IMG/VR virus record: IMGVR_UViG_3300042923_000563
Span: 1-38,552 of that record
Direction: 5' to 3' (one strand)
DNA from: a virus
Length of the DNA stretch: 38,552 bases
The notes under the pieces are model-generated. The model was not told the DNA's origin, did no database searches, and worked only from the letters and a program-made list of their open reading frames with translations. Of the stretch, positions 1,178 through 38,552 are shown piece by piece. How positions within the stretch are numbered: the first letter of the stretch is position 1; each line of letters opens with the position of its first letter. A program made the position numbers and the translations under genes.

Positions 1178-1405
1178 ATGGGATTTAGGGATGAACCACT
1201 TGAAGCAGGGTGCGAAGATATATCAATAACGATTAAGTCAAAGATTGATATCTATATTGGTCAGATCAGAGAAGCGCTTGACCCTGCAGGAAGCAATGTC
1301 CTATGTATGGTTACAGAAATAAGCAAAGTAGAAGTAAAGCGTGGGAAATTTACGATGGATGCGAAGATGATTCCGCTTCATTTGATCGAAAAAGGGAACA
1401 TGTAG
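1178..1405 (+). CDS. Hypothetical small protein (75 aa)
   Basis: Starts at an ATG preceded by a GGCGGTGG purine stretch. The product is acidic/basic mixed with no obvious membrane segment; hydrophobic residues alternate (VLCMVTEISKVEVK), suggesting a small beta-rich fold. Function is not recognised. It is followed at once by copy A of the dispersed repeat. Confidence 0.6.
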   Translation: MGFRDEPLEAGCEDISITIKSKIDIYIGQIREALDPAGSNVLCMVTEISKVEVKRGKFTMDAKMIPLHLIEKGNM

Positions 1406-1414
1406 TCATTGGAC

Positions 1415-1460
1415 GGAGGCCATCGAATCGACCGAATAGCTTAACGAAGTGGAGGCCGTG
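1415..1460 (+). repeat. Dispersed ESTE-tail repeat, copy A
   Basis: Contains the core GAATCGACCGAAT, then TTAACGAAGT, then GGAGGCCGT. GGAGGCC also occurs at its left end. Read in the sense shared by the family it spells E-A-I-E-S-T-E, a TAG stop, then L-N-E-V-E-A-V. Its final GGAGG lies 8 bases before the ATG at 1464 and acts as that ORF's ribosome-binding site. See copies B to H. Confidence 0.8.
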
Positions 1461-1463
1461 GAC

Positions 1464-3368: not shown

Positions 3369-3403
3369 CACGTGATTTGAAAAAAGGTTTTGATCTTACT
3401 ACG

Positions 3404-3450
3404 AATCGACCGAAATACTTAAGGAACGAAGTGACTGGAGGCCGTAGGGG
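3404..3450 (+). repeat. Dispersed ESTE-tail repeat, copy B
   Basis: Carries ACGAATCGACCGAAAT, then AAGGAACGAAGTGA, then CTGGAGGCCGTA. The core encodes E-S-T-E in the family sense, but downstream bases have drifted (E-I-L-K-E-R). It lies just upstream of the TTG-started ORF at 3460 and contributes purine-rich sequence before it. Confidence 0.75.
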
Positions 3451-29791: not shown

Positions 29792-29965
29792 TTATACGGC
29801 CTCCACTTCGTTAGCGGATTCGGTCGGATCGATGGCCTGCGGCAAGTTCGAACACTTCGGGCAATCCATAAATTCATCTGGAAACCGATCCGGCCAATAC
29901 AGTGCGCTTCCAGTGGTTGGAATCTTCTTCTTACCGTTGCATTGTGTACACTTATCATTGTTCAC
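29792..29965 (-). CDS. Cys-pair protein with ESTE-type tail (57 aa)
   Basis: GTG at 29965 overlaps the stop of the preceding gene (GTGA) and follows AAAGGAGGAAC. C-T-Q-C at residues 6-9 and C-P-K-C at 35-38 are a likely zinc ribbon. The last 14 residues (IDPTESANEVEAV) are encoded entirely by repeat copy C. The same tail type ends two unrelated-looking Cys-pair proteins at 33938 and 37860. Function unknown. Confidence 0.6.
   Translation of the reverse strand: MNNDKCTQCNGKKKIPTTGSALYWPDRFPDEFMDCPKCSNLPQAIDPTESANEVEAV
29795..29837 (-). repeat. Dispersed ESTE-tail repeat, copy C
   Basis: On the minus strand GGCCATCGATCCGACCGAAT, then CCGCTAACGAAGT, then GGAGGCCGTA. It encodes the C-terminal tail of the gene at 29792 and ends in GGAGG before the next gene. 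It is the fullest copy. Confidence 0.85.
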
Positions 29966-30271: not shown

Positions 30272-30312
30272 ACGTGCCAGCCTGTTAGAACGTAGGAATA
30301 CCCTGACTTTTT

Positions 30313-30386
30313 CGGGTTATAGCGAAGCTTGGTATCGCGCTTGTCTGGGGGACAAGAGATCGTCAGTTCAAATCTGGCTAACCCGA
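30313..30386 (+). tRNA. tRNA-Pro (anticodon GGG)
   Basis: A complete cloverleaf: acceptor CGGGTTA/TAACCCG (7 bp), TA, D-arm GCGA/TCGC, anticodon arm CTTGT-CTGGGGG-ACAAG with anticodon GGG at 30347-30349, variable AGATC, T-arm GTCAG-TTCAAAT-CTGGC and discriminator A. C1-G72 and A73 are the bacterial tRNA-Pro identity elements. CCA is not encoded. It reads CCC and CCT codons. It lies beside the candidate attP and opposite the integrase. Confidence 0.93.
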
Positions 30387-30390
30387 TAAC

Positions 30391-33837: not shown

Positions 33838-33882
33838 CAAGGATAGCATGGGATCGTAATAATGACCAAGAGTCACAATATA

Positions 33883-33922
33883 TACGGCCTCCACTGCGTT
33901 GGGTGATTCGGTCGAACCGATG
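33883..33922 (-). repeat. Dispersed ESTE-tail repeat, copy D (inverted)
   Basis: On the plus strand TACGGCCTCCACTGCGTTGGG, then GATTCGGTCGAACCGATGAG. Inverted relative to copy E at the other end of the gene at 33938; the pair flanks that gene. It is followed by GAAAGGAC, the gene's ribosome site. Confidence 0.8.
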
Positions 33923-33937
33923 AGAAAGGACGAAAAC

Positions 33938-34162
33938 ATGAGAGAACAAGAAGATATCTGCTGTACATGCAAGAAAGATGTGGCTTTTGGATGTCGCACA
34001 TCGATCAAGGAAAAAGATGTTGTAAAAGTAATCGGAGTTGTTGGTTGCAGGCAATACGAAGTAGACGCGAAAAAATCCCAGTATTACGGACCTTGGCATA
34101 TGCCAAATTATTTGCCGGAGGCCCCCGAATCGACCGAACACGCCCAAGCCGAAGGAAGGTAG
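33938..34162 (+). CDS. Cys-pair protein with ESTE-type tail (74 aa)
   Basis: ATG at 33938 after GAAAGGACG. C-C-T-C at residues 8-11 and single Cys at ~19 and ~44 make a possible zinc site. The tail, E-A-P-E-S-T-E-H-A-Q-A-E-G, is encoded by repeat copy E. The gene lies exactly between inverted copies D and E. Function unknown. Confidence 0.6.
   Translation: MREQEDICCTCKKDVAFGCRTSIKEKDVVKVIGVVGCRQYEVDAKKSQYYGPWHMPNYLPEAPESTEHAQAEGR
34125..34157 (+). repeat. Dispersed ESTE-tail repeat, copy E
   Basis: CCGAATCGACCGAACACG, then CCCAAGCCGAAGGA. It encodes the tail of the preceding gene and ends in GAAGGAAGG, which serves as ribosome site for the GTG at 34167. Confidence 0.8.
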
Positions 34163-34166
34163 AATC

Positions 34167-34298
34167 GTGAACCCCCACGAACGCATACGCCAACTAGAAG
34201 CCGAAGTCGCGCAATACCAAGCCATGGAGCAATACCTATACGCAAGAATAAGCAAATTGGAGGATGAAGCATGCGCCAAGAGATTGATAACCAAATGA
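34167..34298 (+). CDS. Small coiled-coil protein (43 aa)
   Basis: GTG 8 bases after GAAGGAAGG from repeat copy E. Helical (RIRQLEAEVAQYQAMEQY). Overlaps the next gene. No family recognised. Confidence 0.5.
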   Translation: MNPHERIRQLEAEVAQYQAMEQYLYARISKLEDEACAKRLITK

Positions 34299-34426
34299 CG
34301 AGAGCAGAAACGGAGCCGTCAAGCCTAGCGTGGCAAGAAGTGCTGATGAGCTATCACAAGCCAGCGATGGATATGAAGCGATTCCGCAAACTATGGAACG
34401 ACAGAGTAAGGGAGGAAGCGAAATGA
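34271..34426 (+). CDS. Hypothetical small protein (51 aa)
   Basis: ATG after TTGGAGGATGAAGC, inside the preceding gene in another frame. Ends with a basic helix (RFRKLWNDRVREEAK). Its TGA overlaps the ATG of the next gene. No family recognised. Confidence 0.5.
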   Translation: MRQEIDNQMTRAETEPSSLAWQEVLMSYHKPAMDMKRFRKLWNDRVREEAK

Positions 34427-34791
34427 GTGAAAAGGTAACGTTGCCCCGTGAAGTCGCAGAAGCGATTGATCACATAAAACACATGGGTTTGCACAATATC
34501 ATCGAATGCGTAGTAAACATGCAATATTTTGATGAAAACACCACACCTAAACTTCCCTTCATTCGGAATTACTTCAAAAGTGACTGGAGATTGTTAGCTG
34601 AAGCTTTGATATACGGCTATGAAGCGGAGCAGACACCTGAGGATAAGGTGAGAATTACTTTTGATCATGTGCTTGGTCAAATTGAAAAGTTGGGAGATCA
34701 TCCGCAAGCTGAACACTGGAAAGGCATGAAAACTGGAATAATCGTCACTCTTGCGAGTCTCAACATAAAAATCAGCGGGGTGAACCAATAA
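34423..34791 (+). CDS. Conserved-type small phage protein (122 aa)
   Basis: The start at ATG 34423 follows AAGGGAGGAAG and overlaps the previous stop. Helical, with an aromatic core (NYFKSDWRLLAEALIYGYEAE; HWKGMKTGIIVTLASLNIKI). Looks like the small unnamed proteins of Bacillales phage early regions; no family assigned. It abuts the next gene (TAATG). Confidence 0.6.
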   Translation: MSEKVTLPREVAEAIDHIKHMGLHNIIECVVNMQYFDENTTPKLPFIRNYFKSDWRLLAEALIYGYEAEQTPEDKVRITFDHVLGQIEKLGDHPQAEHWKGMKTGIIVTLASLNIKISGVNQ

Positions 34792-35159
34792 TGATCCACA
34801 AACTATGGAATCACCTACAAATCGACCAAGTCCAACGCTTTTTCGACGATCAGCCCGACTCGATCCTATCCTGCGTGTTTGCAGCGCTCGACAACGAACT
34901 ACGATGGTCCGAACAACCACCGTTCAAAGAATACCTCTGGCACTACGAACACGCCGATTTGACGATGCTGGGCTGGCTGAGCGTGTTTGAGCTAAAGGAT
35001 GGATATTCTGACGAAGCCAATGACGAGCTGCGACTATTGTTTATCGAAGCTGCTACGAATCATCTCGAACTATCGACGGAGCAGGAACAAAGCGTTGTGG
35101 TCAGGCAATGGGAATTTGAGCATAACCAAATGATTGAATTGGAGGCGAAGTCAGCGTGA
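34791..35159 (+). CDS. Hypothetical acidic protein (122 aa)
   Basis: One-base overlap with the preceding stop (TAATG). Helical and acidic, with many Trp and Leu (LWHYEHADLTMLGWLSVFEL). No domain recognised. Its stop overlaps the GTG of the next gene. Confidence 0.6.
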   Translation: MIHKLWNHLQIDQVQRFFDDQPDSILSCVFAALDNELRWSEQPPFKEYLWHYEHADLTMLGWLSVFELKDGYSDEANDELRLLFIEAATNHLELSTEQEQSVVVRQWEFEHNQMIELEAKSA

Positions 35160-35308
35160 TCAACCAAGACACACTAAACAATCAACTACGAGCAGCCGCA
35201 AAAGTCGCCTATGAATCCGGTTACAAGCATGCCTTCCGTGTCTGCATTAAATTAAGACAAGCCCGATTAAAAAACACCCCTGCAGCGACAACTGCAAAAG
35301 GTGTATAG
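35156..35308 (+). CDS. Small basic protein (50 aa)
   Basis: GTG overlaps the preceding TGA (GTGA), with TTGGAGGCG upstream. Basic helix in the middle (YKHAFRVCIKLRQARLKN). Its 3' end lies in an ACACC/GGTGT hairpin. No family recognised. Confidence 0.5.
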   Translation: MINQDTLNNQLRAAAKVAYESGYKHAFRVCIKLRQARLKNTPAATTAKGV

Positions 35309-35358
35309 GAAAACAAAAAGTTGTAGTAATCATACCATACCTAGGAGGAGTGAGCTAG

Positions 35359-35850
35359 ATGAGTACTGATTTTAAATTGTACGAGCTGTCGGATGTTATG
35401 AATCAAGTGGCTCAAATGATAGAGGACGGCGTAGAAGGGTTAGAAGATGCGCTAGAGTCCATAGAGTATTCGTTCCAGGACAAAGCCGAATCCATCATCA
35501 AGCTATGGCGTAGCAAGCTGGCTGAACGGGACATCATCAAGTCGGAGATTCATCGGCTGCAGCAAAGGGCTGACAAGCTGGATAAGGACGCGAATTGGCT
35601 GCACGGCTACGTAGAACGCGAGATGTTGAACGCTAACATTACAGAGATCAAGTCACCGCTATTCAAGATTGCTTTGGGGCTCAATCCTGAACGTGTTGAG
35701 GTGCTAAATCAATCAATTATACCGGATCAATACTTACGCTCTAACATCACTATTGCTGCGGACAAAGTGGCGATCAAGGAAGCAATCAAGAACGGCGAAT
35801 CGGTACCCGGGTGCGAGTTAAGGCAAGATTTGAAACTAAAAATACGTTGA
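35359..35850 (+). CDS. Siphovirus Gp157-like protein
   Basis: 163 residues after TAGGAGGAGTG. The N-terminal LYELSDVMNQVAQMI, central KAESIIKLWRSKLAERD, KLDKDANWLHGYVEREM and the C-terminal IKSPLFKIALG match the Gp157 family of Gram-positive phages. These proteins are encoded before Sak4-like ATPases; in Streptococcus one was linked to phage resistance, mechanism unclear. Here it precedes the ATPase gene. Confidence 0.75.
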   Translation: MSTDFKLYELSDVMNQVAQMIEDGVEGLEDALESIEYSFQDKAESIIKLWRSKLAERDIIKSEIHRLQQRADKLDKDANWLHGYVEREMLNANITEIKSPLFKIALGLNPERVEVLNQSIIPDQYLRSNITIAADKVAIKEAIKNGESVPGCELRQDLKLKIR

Positions 35851-35864
35851 GGAGCGTGACCACT

Positions 35865-36779
35865 ATGCAGATCAGAAAAGCAGAACGGAAGGTTTCGAAA
35901 GCGCGTGTGGCATTAGCTGGACCGAGCGGATCAGGCAAGACGTTATCAGCTTTACTCATCGCCTTAGGTATCACAGAGGACATTGACAAGATTGGGTTGA
36001 TCGATACCGAAAACCGAAGCGCTGACCTCTATGCAGATACGCTTAAGGCAGGGATTCATATCGGACAATTTGCCAAACTCGATCTAGAAGCCCCTTATAC
36101 GACTGAGCGTTACATTGAAGCAATCAAGGCTTTCGAAGCGCATGGTGTGGACGTCATTATCATAGATTCACTTTCACATGCATGGGCTGGAGAAGGCGGT
36201 TTGTTGGAACAAGTGGACAACGCCGGCGGAAGTGGAAATAAATTCGCAGCATGGGGAAAGATTACGCCAAAGCAAAACAAATTCGTGGAGTCCATCCTTA
36301 AGTCGAAGTGTCATATCATCGTGACCCTGAGATCCAAAACTGAATATGTCCTTGTTGATAACGACAAGGGCAAGAAAGAACCTCAAAAGGTAGGGATGGC
36401 ACCGATCCAACGGGACGGTTTGGAGTATGAGTTCACGACGATGCTGGACCTTAACGCTGAGCACACCGCTACAAGCTCCAAGGACCGCACAGGGCTGTTT
36501 GAGGGGCAATACTTTAAGATTACCACGGATGTCGGGAAAAGGCTCTCAGAATGGCTTGAGAACGGTGTAGAAATCATAAAACCCGTGACGGTGATGGCAA
36601 TCAATACCAAGTGGATTGAGCTGGGATTGAAACCCGAAGCTATAGATGCACAAACCCAAAAACTCTTCGGTGATGCGCTGCATGCCTTAACCGAACCGAA
36701 AGCACAAGAGTTCTTGGCTAAGTTGAACGAATCAATCAAAGCGAAGCAGCAACAAGCACCGGCTGCAGAAGGAGCTTAA
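35865..36779 (+). CDS. Sak4-like recombination ATPase
   Basis: The ATG at 35865 follows TTGAGGAGCG; the open frame starts further upstream within the Gp157-like gene. 304 residues. Walker A GPSGSGKT at 19-26, Walker B VIIIDS at 97-102 and a RecA-like core. Phage AAA proteins between Gp157 and SSB are Sak4-type, which act with SSB in homologous annealing and recombination. The C-terminal ~70 residues are a separate helical region. Confidence 0.75.
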   Translation: MQIRKAERKVSKARVALAGPSGSGKTLSALLIALGITEDIDKIGLIDTENRSADLYADTLKAGIHIGQFAKLDLEAPYTTERYIEAIKAFEAHGVDVIIIDSLSHAWAGEGGLLEQVDNAGGSGNKFAAWGKITPKQNKFVESILKSKCHIIVTLRSKTEYVLVDNDKGKKEPQKVGMAPIQRDGLEYEFTTMLDLNAEHTATSSKDRTGLFEGQYFKITTDVGKRLSEWLENGVEIIKPVTVMAINTKWIELGLKPEAIDAQTQKLFGDALHALTEPKAQEFLAKLNESIKAKQQQAPAAEGA

Positions 36780-36782
36780 TCC

Positions 36783-37196
36783 ATGCTAAATCGAGTCATC
36801 TTGATAGGACGCCTCACACGCGATCCGGATTTACGGTATACCCCCTCAGGGGTAGCCGTCAATCAATTCACATTAGCCGTTGATCGGCCTGTTGCGAGTG
36901 GTCGCGATAAGGAAACGGACTTCATAAACATCGTCACCTGGAGAAAGTTAGCGGAGGTATGCGCCAATTACCTACGAAAAGGCAGACTAACCGCCGTGGA
37001 AGGTCGCCTACAGATACGACATTACGATAACAACGAGGGTAAACGGGTCTACGTCACCGAGATCATCGCGGAGAATGTGCGGTTCTTGGAGCACGGCGAG
37101 GTCGGGCAGAACCTAGAGAGGCAGCAGCAGCCTGAATCAAGCACTTATACCGAGGATAAGCCGATCGACATCAGTGACGATGATCTTCCGTTCTAA
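36783..37196 (+). CDS. ssb: Single-stranded DNA-binding protein
   Basis: 137 residues. An OB fold beginning [19 protein letters not shown], with the conserved [14 protein letters not shown] strand and [14 protein letters not shown], then a short linker and the acidic tip DDDLPF that recruits partner proteins. It protects single-stranded phage DNA and pairs with the ATPase upstream. It starts four bases after the ATPase stop; the ribosome site AAGGAGC is inside that gene's end. Confidence 0.95.
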
Positions 37197-37208
37197 GGAG
37201 GGTAACCC

Positions 37209-37535
37209 ATGAGTCTCGCCAACCAGCCAGTAAGGGAATACACCAAAAAGCAGCAGCTCCATAAGGTGCGTATCAAGCTCACCCAGCGACAAATGGGAGA
37301 GATAAGCAATAAGGTTGACGGCCAGCTAAAGGAGCGCTCAGGAAACGTGTGTGAGCTTCAGAGGAAGTGCAGAGGAGCAGAGGCTATCCAGCGAGCGCAT
37401 ATAACCGGAAGGAAGCAGATTGACCACAAGACAACTGTGAACGATCTGCTCCACGTCTGCGTTGATTGTCATAAATGGTTGGATGAAACCGTAGAGGGAA
37501 TTAAATATAAGCGACTATTGGAGGAAGCCAAATGA
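37209..37535 (+). CDS. HNH-type nuclease-like protein
   Basis: 108 residues after AAGGAGGGTAACC. The N-terminus is basic (MSLANQPVREYTKKQQ). The C-terminal half has Cys in VCELQRKC, then AHITGRKQIDH, and C-V-D-C-H-K-W, a spacing like HNH nucleases with zinc-binding Cys pairs. Possible role in recombination or packaging. It overlaps the next gene by four bases. Confidence 0.65.
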   Translation: MSLANQPVREYTKKQQLHKVRIKLTQRQMGEISNKVDGQLKERSGNVCELQRKCRGAEAIQRAHITGRKQIDHKTTVNDLLHVCVDCHKWLDETVEGIKYKRLLEEAK

Positions 37536-37798
37536 AAGTTCAAATCGAAGGAAACCTATACATCGAATCAGACGCCTTACAGTTCATCATAAAAGAGTAT
37601 ACAGGCAAGGTCAGCACGGACAAAGAGGGTAAAGAAACGGAACTCTATAACATCCATGGGTATTATACCAACGTCCAATCCTGCATTAAGCGACTGGTGA
37701 CCATGAAGATCAAAGAATCGACCGCCTCCACGCTCTCAGAGCTGCTAGAGGACGTGAAACGGATTGAGCAATACATTGAGTCTAAAGTGACGGTATAA
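37532..37798 (+). CDS. Conserved phage protein (88 aa)
   Basis: Four-base overlap with the HNH-like gene. The pattern YIESDALQFIIKEYTGK, GYYTNVQSCIKRL and STASTLSELLEDVKRIEQYI is familiar from many Gram-positive phage genomes as an unnamed family. Function unknown; lies in the replication/recombination operon. Confidence 0.65.
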   Translation: MKVQIEGNLYIESDALQFIIKEYTGKVSTDKEGKETELYNIHGYYTNVQSCIKRLVTMKIKESTASTLSELLEDVKRIEQYIESKVTV

Positions 37799-37803
37799 AG
37801 CCT

Positions 37804-37842
37804 GATACGGCCTCGCAAGGCTTAGCGGATTCGGTCGATTCG
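37804..37842 (-). repeat. Dispersed ESTE-tail repeat, copy F (inverted)
   Basis: GATACGGCCTCGCAAGGCTTA then GCGGATTCGGTCGATTCGA on the plus strand. Inverted relative to copy G; TTCGGTCGATTCGA pairs with TCGATTCGACCGAA of copy G with a single mismatch. The ribosome site GAAAGGAC of the next gene follows. Confidence 0.85.
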
Positions 37843-37859
37843 AAGAAAGGACCAAACAA

Positions 37860-38081
37860 ATGCGGCGAAAATACACCTGTCCTAGTTGCAAGAAAAAATC
37901 CTACTCAAAGCACTGGAACGCAGAAACTAGCAAAAAGTATGGAGTCAACGGTGAAATTCTCTTAATTCAAGAAGAAGAAAATAACTCGTACTATATCTGC
38001 CCTGAATGCAAACAGGAATCAGAGATGTTTAAAGGTCAGTTAATCATCGATTCGACCGAACCAGCCCAAGCCGAAGGATAA
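37860..38081 (+). CDS. Zinc-ribbon protein with ESTE-type tail (73 aa)
   Basis: ATG after GAAAGGACCAAAC. C-P-S-C at residues 7-10 and C-P-E-C at 47-50 make a classic zinc ribbon with a helical Glu-rich linker between. The tail D-S-T-E-P-A-Q-A-E-G is encoded by repeat copy G. The gene lies exactly between inverted copies F and G, as 33938 lies between D and E. Function unknown. Confidence 0.65.
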   Translation: MRRKYTCPSCKKKSYSKHWNAETSKKYGVNGEILLIQEEENNSYYICPECKQESEMFKGQLIIDSTEPAQAEG

Positions 38082-38083
38082 GG
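38045..38083 (+). repeat. Dispersed ESTE-tail repeat, copy G
   Basis: CATCGATTCGACCGAACCAG then CCCAAGCCGAAGGATAAGG. Encodes the tail and stop of the zinc-ribbon gene and ends in a purine-rich stretch. Near-identical in layout to copy E. Confidence 0.85.
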
Positions 38084-38124
38084 TTCAATCCATATAAGAG
38101 CCCTAAGGGTCAGGAGGAAGCAAA

Positions 38125-38319
38125 ATGATCGAATGGAAAGAATACGACCCAACAAGCAGAGAGATCGAAAGCCACATAGACCACTTGGTAACTAACGGTC
38201 ATCGTACATTGATTGCACAACACGCAAGTGTACCAGGTACAGGCAAATACAGTTGGATGATTAATAATGCGCTGATTGGTTGGGTGACCCACTACACAAA
38301 GATAAATTTGCCACAATAG
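38125..38319 (+). CDS. Hypothetical small protein (64 aa)
   Basis: ATG after CAGGAGGAAGC. Mixed composition with PGTGKYSWMINNALIGW in the middle; the G-T-G-K is too short for a P-loop. No family recognised. A GAGCCC-TACG-GGGCTC hairpin (38319-38334) follows. Confidence 0.55.
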   Translation: MIEWKEYDPTSREIESHIDHLVTNGHRTLIAQHASVPGTGKYSWMINNALIGWVTHYTKINLPQ

Positions 38320-38334
38320 AGCCCTACGGGGCTC
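38319..38334 (+). terminator. Hairpin after the 64-aa gene
   Basis: GAGCCC-TACG-GGGCTC, six perfect pairs with no T run. Probable mRNA 3'-end protector or weak terminator. Confidence 0.5.
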
Positions 38335-38362
38335 CCATAAAAGAATAGGTGGTGTACATGGG

Positions 38363-38500
38363 ATGGAAATACCAATTGAGAAAATGTGTGGGTACTGCAA
38401 GCACTTTGAAACTCCGCCCAAATGCAAGTTAGATGGCGAAGAAACAGAAATTACATTTAGTTGCAGTCAGCACGAAGTGTTAGACGAAGTATCTGAGTGA
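38363..38500 (+). CDS. Cys-rich small protein (45 aa)
   Basis: ATG at 38363 with AGGTGGTG ~10 bases upstream. C-G-Y-C at residues 9-12, Cys at 21 and 34 and a His (SCSQHE), consistent with one zinc site. An alternative ATG at 38358 in another frame gives a 24-residue peptide and is less likely. Part of the set of tiny Cys-pair proteins. Confidence 0.5.
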   Translation: MEIPIEKMCGYCKHFETPPKCKLDGEETEITFSCSQHEVLDEVSE

Positions 38501-38514
38501 ATATTGAGATGTAT

Positions 38515-38531
38515 GGGAGGGGTTCCCTCCC
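38515..38531 (+). terminator. Hairpin near right edge
   Basis: GGGAGGG-GTT-CCCTCCC, seven perfect pairs followed by TAAAGG. A compact transcript-end structure before repeat copy H. Confidence 0.5.
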
Positions 38532-38541
38532 TAAAGGACCG

Positions 38542-38552
38542 GATACGGCCTC
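38542..38552 (-). repeat. Dispersed ESTE-tail repeat, copy H (cut by window end)
   Basis: GATACGGCCTC matches the left end of copy F base for base and is cut by the right edge. It predicts a further inverted-repeat-flanked small gene outside the window. Confidence 0.6.

Follow-up and report, generated by a model that had tools for sequence, protein, structure and literature searches.

The stretch analysed here (hereafter the window) comprises 38,552 nt, positions 1 to 38,552 of the IMG/VR virus record IMGVR_UViG_3300042923_000563, and carries copies, designated A to H, of a repeated element of about 60 nt that recurs around small genes in related prophages. Two pairs of copies each enclose a single gene on the plus strand (E values are from the covariance model R1 described below). 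In cassette 1, the five-prime (L) copy D (33880..33941, minus strand, E 5.6e-9) lies antisense to the gene and holds the ribosome site GAGAAAGGA in its inner half; the ORF (33938..34162, plus strand) encodes a 74-aa Cys-containing protein with the tail ESTEHAQAEGR, and this tail is encoded by the three-prime (R) copy E (34104..34156, plus strand, E 1.7e-6). Cassette 2 consists of the L copy F (37803..37875, minus strand, E 2.2e-4), with GAAGAAAGGA in its inner half, the gene of a 73-aa zinc-ribbon-like protein with the tail DSTEPAQAEG (37860..38081, plus strand; Pfam Zn_ribbon_16, E 2.7e-6), and the tail-encoding R copy G (38025..38078, plus strand, E 0.015), whose identity is clear from its homology with copy E and with locus L005. 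Both D and F are antisense and just upstream of the ribosome sites of the genes at 33938-34162 and 37860-38081. The bodies of the two proteins are unlike each other; that of cassette 1 belongs to no Pfam or PHROG family, and a search for its relatives gave no match, nor did a first scan of genome contigs.

The initial annotation of this DNA had described D/E and F/G as inverted repeats placed around single small genes, which the R1 matches confirm, and had let copy H begin another such pair. Since the outer halves of E and G are degenerate, D/E and F/G match less well as inverted repeats than pairs of this family usually do. Copy H (38534..38552, minus strand), seen from its sequence only, is the outer edge of a putative element cut by the window end; about 14 nt (CCGGATACGGCCTC) are present, and a full copy is unconfirmed. 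The remaining copies are solo. Copy A (1402..1463, plus strand, 67.7 bits, E 3.8e-15) is of the three-prime type in sense orientation, with a degenerate left hairpin GGACGGAGGCC, a right mini-hairpin AC-GAA-GT and a GGAGG just upstream of a 29-aa ORF (1458-1547). Copy B (3383..3449, plus strand, E 0.0019) is degenerate, contains an internal insertion and precedes a 35-aa hydrophobic ORF. Copy C (29792..29853, minus strand, E 1e-12), outside the range of the initial annotation, is a three-prime element encoding the tail DPTESANEVEAV of a minus-strand CxxC ORF (29965-29792). The exact pattern GAATCGACCGAA occurs four times in the window (1425, 3403, 34127 and, on the minus strand, 37830), and its reversed control not at all.

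From left to right the element consists of a left hairpin, the conserved TCGACCGAAT, a right mini-hairpin and a GGCCG edge. Forms of the left hairpin include GGCC-GAA-GGCC, GCGC-GCA-GCGC and GCAGC-GAA-GCTGC, followed downstream by ATCGA and then TCGACCGAAT. On the 3' side of TCGACCGAAT come a few bases, an A, the right mini-hairpin (GC-GAA-GC, AC-GAA-GT or GT-GAA-AC, the longest being GTCCC-GTAA-GGGAC), a G and GGGGCCG, often followed by TATAG; a TATA-like GGCCGTATA was seen at the element edge. Neither hairpin is followed by a T-run in the consensus. Some copies, a minority, have a short outer-half variant (GCGCGAGCCG or GCCCAAGCCGAAGG) instead of the usual right hairpin (window 34126-34156 and 38048-38078; L135 1337; L138 11715; L140 7310; L141 9396; L168 6926).

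Copies for alignment were collected by exact-pattern searches and searches for relatives in viral contigs; 22 copies from the window and its relatives were aligned, and model R1 of the full element was built on them. An early exact-pattern scan allowing mismatches had a noisy chance expectation, for which reason the claim of presence rests on R1, which found 147 copies across 49 fetched loci (755-kb search). When Rfam covariance models were run against the window, a tRNA was the sole significant match, so that the element matches no curated family.

With a mean column identity of 65% in the 22-copy alignment, the sequence of the element is variable, and its changes are compensatory: 77 cells were altered on both sides of a pair versus 20.7 +/- 3.5 in shuffles, a count to be read with the caveat that the alignment was fitted to R1. 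The two right-hairpin pairs counted were paired in every cell. Covariation thus shows that every element forms hairpins in which base pairing is kept although the bases themselves change. Independently of the model, the pattern A-stem-GNA/GNNA/GNAB-stem-G was present in 101 of 139 distinct right halves, versus 3.5 (maximum 10) in shuffles, and this loop preference on the element's own strand is alike in R copies (70/95) and L copies (26/38). Loops of the GNA and GNNA class are stable in DNA. Among DNA mini-hairpins, those of the GCGAAGC type are known for their unusual stability (PMC10527192).

Copies are arranged around genes in a fixed manner. Neighbouring copies in outward (-,+) orientation are separated by gaps of 150-1137 nt in 28 of 32 cases, and other orientations show no such spacing; in 27 of these 28 pairs one end faces a start and the other a stop, and inside the pairs lies mostly one small ORF. 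Among the 147 copies, 100 follow a gene in sense (R) and 39 precede a gene in antisense (L), although gene calls around the copies were made by a simple script and single cases may be wrong. The proposed link of the repeats to gene boundaries is borne out, as the elements directly adjoin single ORFs and keep a fixed polarity to them. After an R copy, the next gene is co-directional in 91 of 99 cases, and many R copies are located about 30-90 nt upstream of the next start. In nine prophages a family of hydrophobic micro-ORFs of 24-30 aa (e.g., MRYSERYVYWILMAMIYIFIEVVR) starts 34-39 nt past the element core (L001 5146, L003 3675, L138 6481, L140 2550, L152 5655, L154 5460, L156 5724, L157 5232 and L168 13180); other small hydrophobic ORFs lie downstream of copies A and B in the window.

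The initial annotation had assigned the repeat three roles at once, those of protein tail, ribosome site for the next gene and recombination joint, of which the first two hold in part. Relative to the core, the stop codon of the preceding gene lies 8-56 nt upstream in 57 of the 100 three-prime copies, inside the element in 30 and farther away in 13. The repeat is therefore a protein tail in those 30 copies, in which the upstream gene lacks its own stop, and not elsewhere: a gene that abuts R directly receives from it a C-terminal tail and a stop codon, typical ends being STE*, STESAQAEG and STESPSEAAAG. The tail is a by-product of the position of the element, not its purpose. Likewise, the element provides a ribosome site in those five-prime copies that carry GAAGAAAGGA in place of the inner hairpin, while elsewhere the ribosome site lies outside of it. 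As to the joint, exchange at element-marked sites was found, whereas a role of the element itself in joining is what we infer from it.

A special link to Cys-pair genes, also suggested at first, was not sustained. Cargo with Pfam matches, a set that includes genes upstream of solo R copies, comprises three C5 methylases, Dam, an N6/N4 methylase, a Mom-like protein, RusA, YopX, HTH proteins and zinc ribbons; because the cargo is this diverse, the link is incidental. Nor did the supposed pairing of 5' and 3' copies in the mRNA find support, the two copies of a gene being no more complementary than random ones (p = 0.78) and no more alike (p = 0.44).

Comparison of related prophages revealed exchange at these sites. 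For the zinc-ribbon gene of cassette 2, L005 has a homologue (68% identical) that is also enclosed by inverted elements, at a different place: in L005 the gene lies between a KANHHQL gene and Sak4, in the window after HNH. In five related prophages (L143, L149, L145, L147 and L148) the gene between the elements is a different one each time, and the linker ATCCATAATCCAAGTAAGGGAGAGATAACAG follows in all of them. Within this set a single type of element is found next to two types of outside DNA, and a single type of outside DNA next to two types of element, which implies that recombination took place at the outer edge. In L136 and L155 both flanks are shared but the gene between them is not, one of the two being a Dcm methylase. 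A hotspot follows the gene ending in PRERAEAAYITLQG (L028 17269, L138 12052, L140 8090, L152 9814, L157 11352 and relatives), behind which the next gene differs in nearly every prophage. In L028 the site is empty and the PRERAEAAYITLQG gene reads straight into R, gaining the tail GATRPEATNSTE; L138, L140, L152, L157, L166 and L168 have one or more different ORFs before R, and L137 and L155 have L, a gene and R. Elements at one site are as divergent as random members of the family (0.61-0.65 versus 0.63), in contrast to an outside flank that hardly varies. Gene and element thus change together between related prophages, and the DNA just outside remains almost constant. The initial idea of a gene-cassette system is upheld by these data: inverted pairs around one ORF recur, the same gene family appears elsewhere, and one site holds different genes in different phages, with the empty and filled states that had been proposed as a check both found. 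Between identical neighbour genes, no clean case of presence versus absence of a solo element was seen, the gene order being too shuffled.

R1 matched 82 of 396 Paenibacillaceae genomes in a family-wide scan and 5 of 399 genomes in a sample of Bacilli, all five being carriers already known from the Paenibacillaceae search. Copies cluster within 5-20 kb and adjoin DnaC/DnaB-like, terminase and portal genes, which places the element in prophages; in the searches made here it was confined to those of Paenibacillaceae. At blastn sensitivity, 50,697 phage records (INPHARED) and 72,556 plasmid records (PLSDB) contained no element. A dispersed repeat of the host chromosome was rejected, as the strict pattern was present in 0 of 19 genomes in one set and 12 of 199 in another, with model matches clustering in prophages.

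Taken together, the repeat would form the ends of small gene cassettes that temperate Paenibacillaceae phages can exchange, the typical unit being an inverted element L, a ribosome site, one ORF and an element R, or an ORF and R alone. We give a probability of roughly 0.5 to the reading that this cassette end serves as a joint in exchange, which might be carried out by some recombinase of the phage or the host, or else by the phage's own annealing proteins, such as Sak4, ERF or similar ones, at the intergenic joints. The element may be recognised as folded single-stranded DNA, because its GNA/GNNA loops stand on its own strand in both orientations to transcription; the same strand preference in R and L copies indicates DNA rather than mRNA. 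A more specific version, an undescribed phage site-specific recombination that reads folded single-stranded DNA, integron-like without an integron integrase and with the same site inverted at both ends of one-gene cassettes, seems to us unlikely.

Several observations weigh against a cassette-end joint. Of 15 copies of one site flank (the outside linker), 4 are without the element, so that the repeat is not obligatory, and other conserved linkers without the element also bound swapped genes; exchange therefore does not need the element, the break may be set by linkers, and the element would be one class of joint among several. The predicted folding energy of the element strand is not favoured over that of its complement, and since folding energies do not separate the strands, recognition at the DNA level can only be proposed; the loops of L copies could have been kept by descent rather than selection. 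The integron integrase TIGR02249 exceeded its curated cut-off in 0 of 19 carrier genomes, 7 of 20 carrier genomes were without a Y1 transposase, no Y1 gene lay close to an element, the Y1 loci lacked the element, and clustering of all carrier-locus proteins gave no common recombinase. Moreover, no recombination event was observed directly.

Alternatively, the elements and the other intergenic linkers could be passive boundaries, short homology patches that let host RecA or annealing proteins of the phage build mosaics without a dedicated enzyme, as has been proposed for the boundary sequences of lambdoid phages. Several other conserved linkers flank swapped genes, Sak4 and ERF are present in carrier phages, and our searches found no dedicated enzyme; yet an element that keeps its fold and not its sequence (65% mean column identity, compensatory changes), and whose same-site copies differ as much as unrelated ones, makes a poor homology patch, and the conserved fold argues for recognition of the folded form. 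We therefore regard a passive boundary as possible, though rather improbable. An intercistronic regulatory or mRNA-processing signal that travels as part of the expression unit of the genes is a still more doubtful explanation: a location between genes read in one direction, with many R copies some 30-90 nt upstream of the following start, and the ribosome sites on five-prime copies would suit it, but not the occurrence in both orientations to transcription with the same own-strand loop preference, hairpins without a T-run, and L and R copies of one gene that do not pair preferentially. Quite improbable, finally, is a non-autonomous transposon, in which L and R would be the terminal inverted repeats of a very small element and a transposase would mobilise it in trans. 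Inverted ends facing outward around a single gene and hairpin ends reminiscent of IS200/IS605 and REP elements recall such a device; against it, inspected flanks show no target duplication, L and R within a cassette are alike only at random level (p = 0.44), many R copies are solo, the cassettes hold no transposase, and the element is restricted to prophage accessory regions. A Y1 transposase or an integron integrase acting in trans was considered and had no support in the carrier-genome searches.

Protein families common to carrier loci are ordinary phage ones (YopX, HNH, SSB, helicase loaders). Profile searches against Pfam and PHROG showed that the window codes for HNH, a large serine integrase, a Sak4-like single-strand annealing ATPase (35865..36779, plus strand; phrog_124, E 1.4e-8; Pfam AAA_24, E 6.9e-22) and a single-strand DNA binding protein (36783..37196, plus strand; Pfam SSB, E 2.8e-36). 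The Sak4 protein, whose nearest chromosomal relatives are from Paenibacillus, is an unproven candidate for a helper of exchange. A tRNA-Pro (GGG) at 30312-30387 adjoins the serine integrase gene and is possibly a phage-borne tRNA or a piece of the attachment region. At least four other conserved intergenic linkers border swapped genes (L143 7018, L147 7175, L149 7436 and relatives; L148 5970; L028 17342), each with a ribosome site and some with a stem-loop; one of them encodes the end EED of the upstream protein.

How phages cleanly swap single accessory genes is an old question, and most joints of phage mosaics show no marker sequence (PMC3029335). Here the joint is marked by a fold-conserved element, which also shows a simple route from non-coding sequence to protein tail. 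With DNA methylases and a Mom-like protein among the cargo, anti-restriction genes could be renewed by such exchange; as empty and filled sites exist in sequenced prophages, the mechanism is directly testable.

Among known systems, integron cassettes consist of a single ORF followed by an attC site, which is conserved in fold rather than in sequence and read as a folded strand. The element resembles such an array in that it stands as a structured site behind an ORF and runs in the same direction (100 of the 147 copies are of this three-prime, sense type); it differs in that carriers lack an integron integrase, inverted copies also precede the gene, and the attC boxes RYYYAAC and GTTRRRY are not conserved, GCTTAAC fitting only copies with a right stem AC/GT and others having AGC or AGT. 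REP/BIME and the ends of IS200/IS605 are small intergenic hairpins with structure-based recognition; unlike them, the element is confined to prophage accessory regions and a carrier genome needs no Y1 transposase. From a terminal-inverted-repeat transposon or miniature inverted-repeat element (MITE) it is distinguished by the lack of target site duplication on inspection and by L-R similarity at the random level. Rickettsia palindromic elements are repeats turned protein-coding, whereas our element gives C-terminal tails only, by read-through at the gene end.

Closer parallels come from phages. Boundary sequences of lambdoid phages, reportedly described by Clark et al., are said to be short conserved intergenic sequences where modules are exchanged; the element is likewise a short intergenic joint for module exchange, but conserved in fold where those are conserved in sequence. 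This concept is cited in PMC3029335. The start-associated sequences and ESAS of Cluster K mycobacteriophages, a 17-bp inverted repeat together with a start-associated sequence directly before start codons (PMC3203893), are similar as repeated intergenic motifs with inverted repeats linked to gene starts, but ESAS stay with given gene families at starts, while our element is found mainly at gene ends, encodes tails and changes with the gene. In T4-type phages, promoter early stem-loop (PeSL) cassettes (Arbiol 2010, Comeau 2014, as cited in PMC4503421) are dispersed intergenic stem-loops in accessory regions tied to gene shuffling. Going by that secondary account, both are intergenic elements bounding shuffled genes; the present one has no evident promoter or terminator T-run, and thus no intrinsic terminator, and displays two covarying hairpins, occurs in either orientation and forms inverted pairs that enclose one gene, in temperate Paenibacillaceae phages. 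The element fails a defining test of each family tested; as far as the accounts cited describe them, it resembles ESAS and attC in some respects and functions most like PeSL and the lambdoid boundary sequences.

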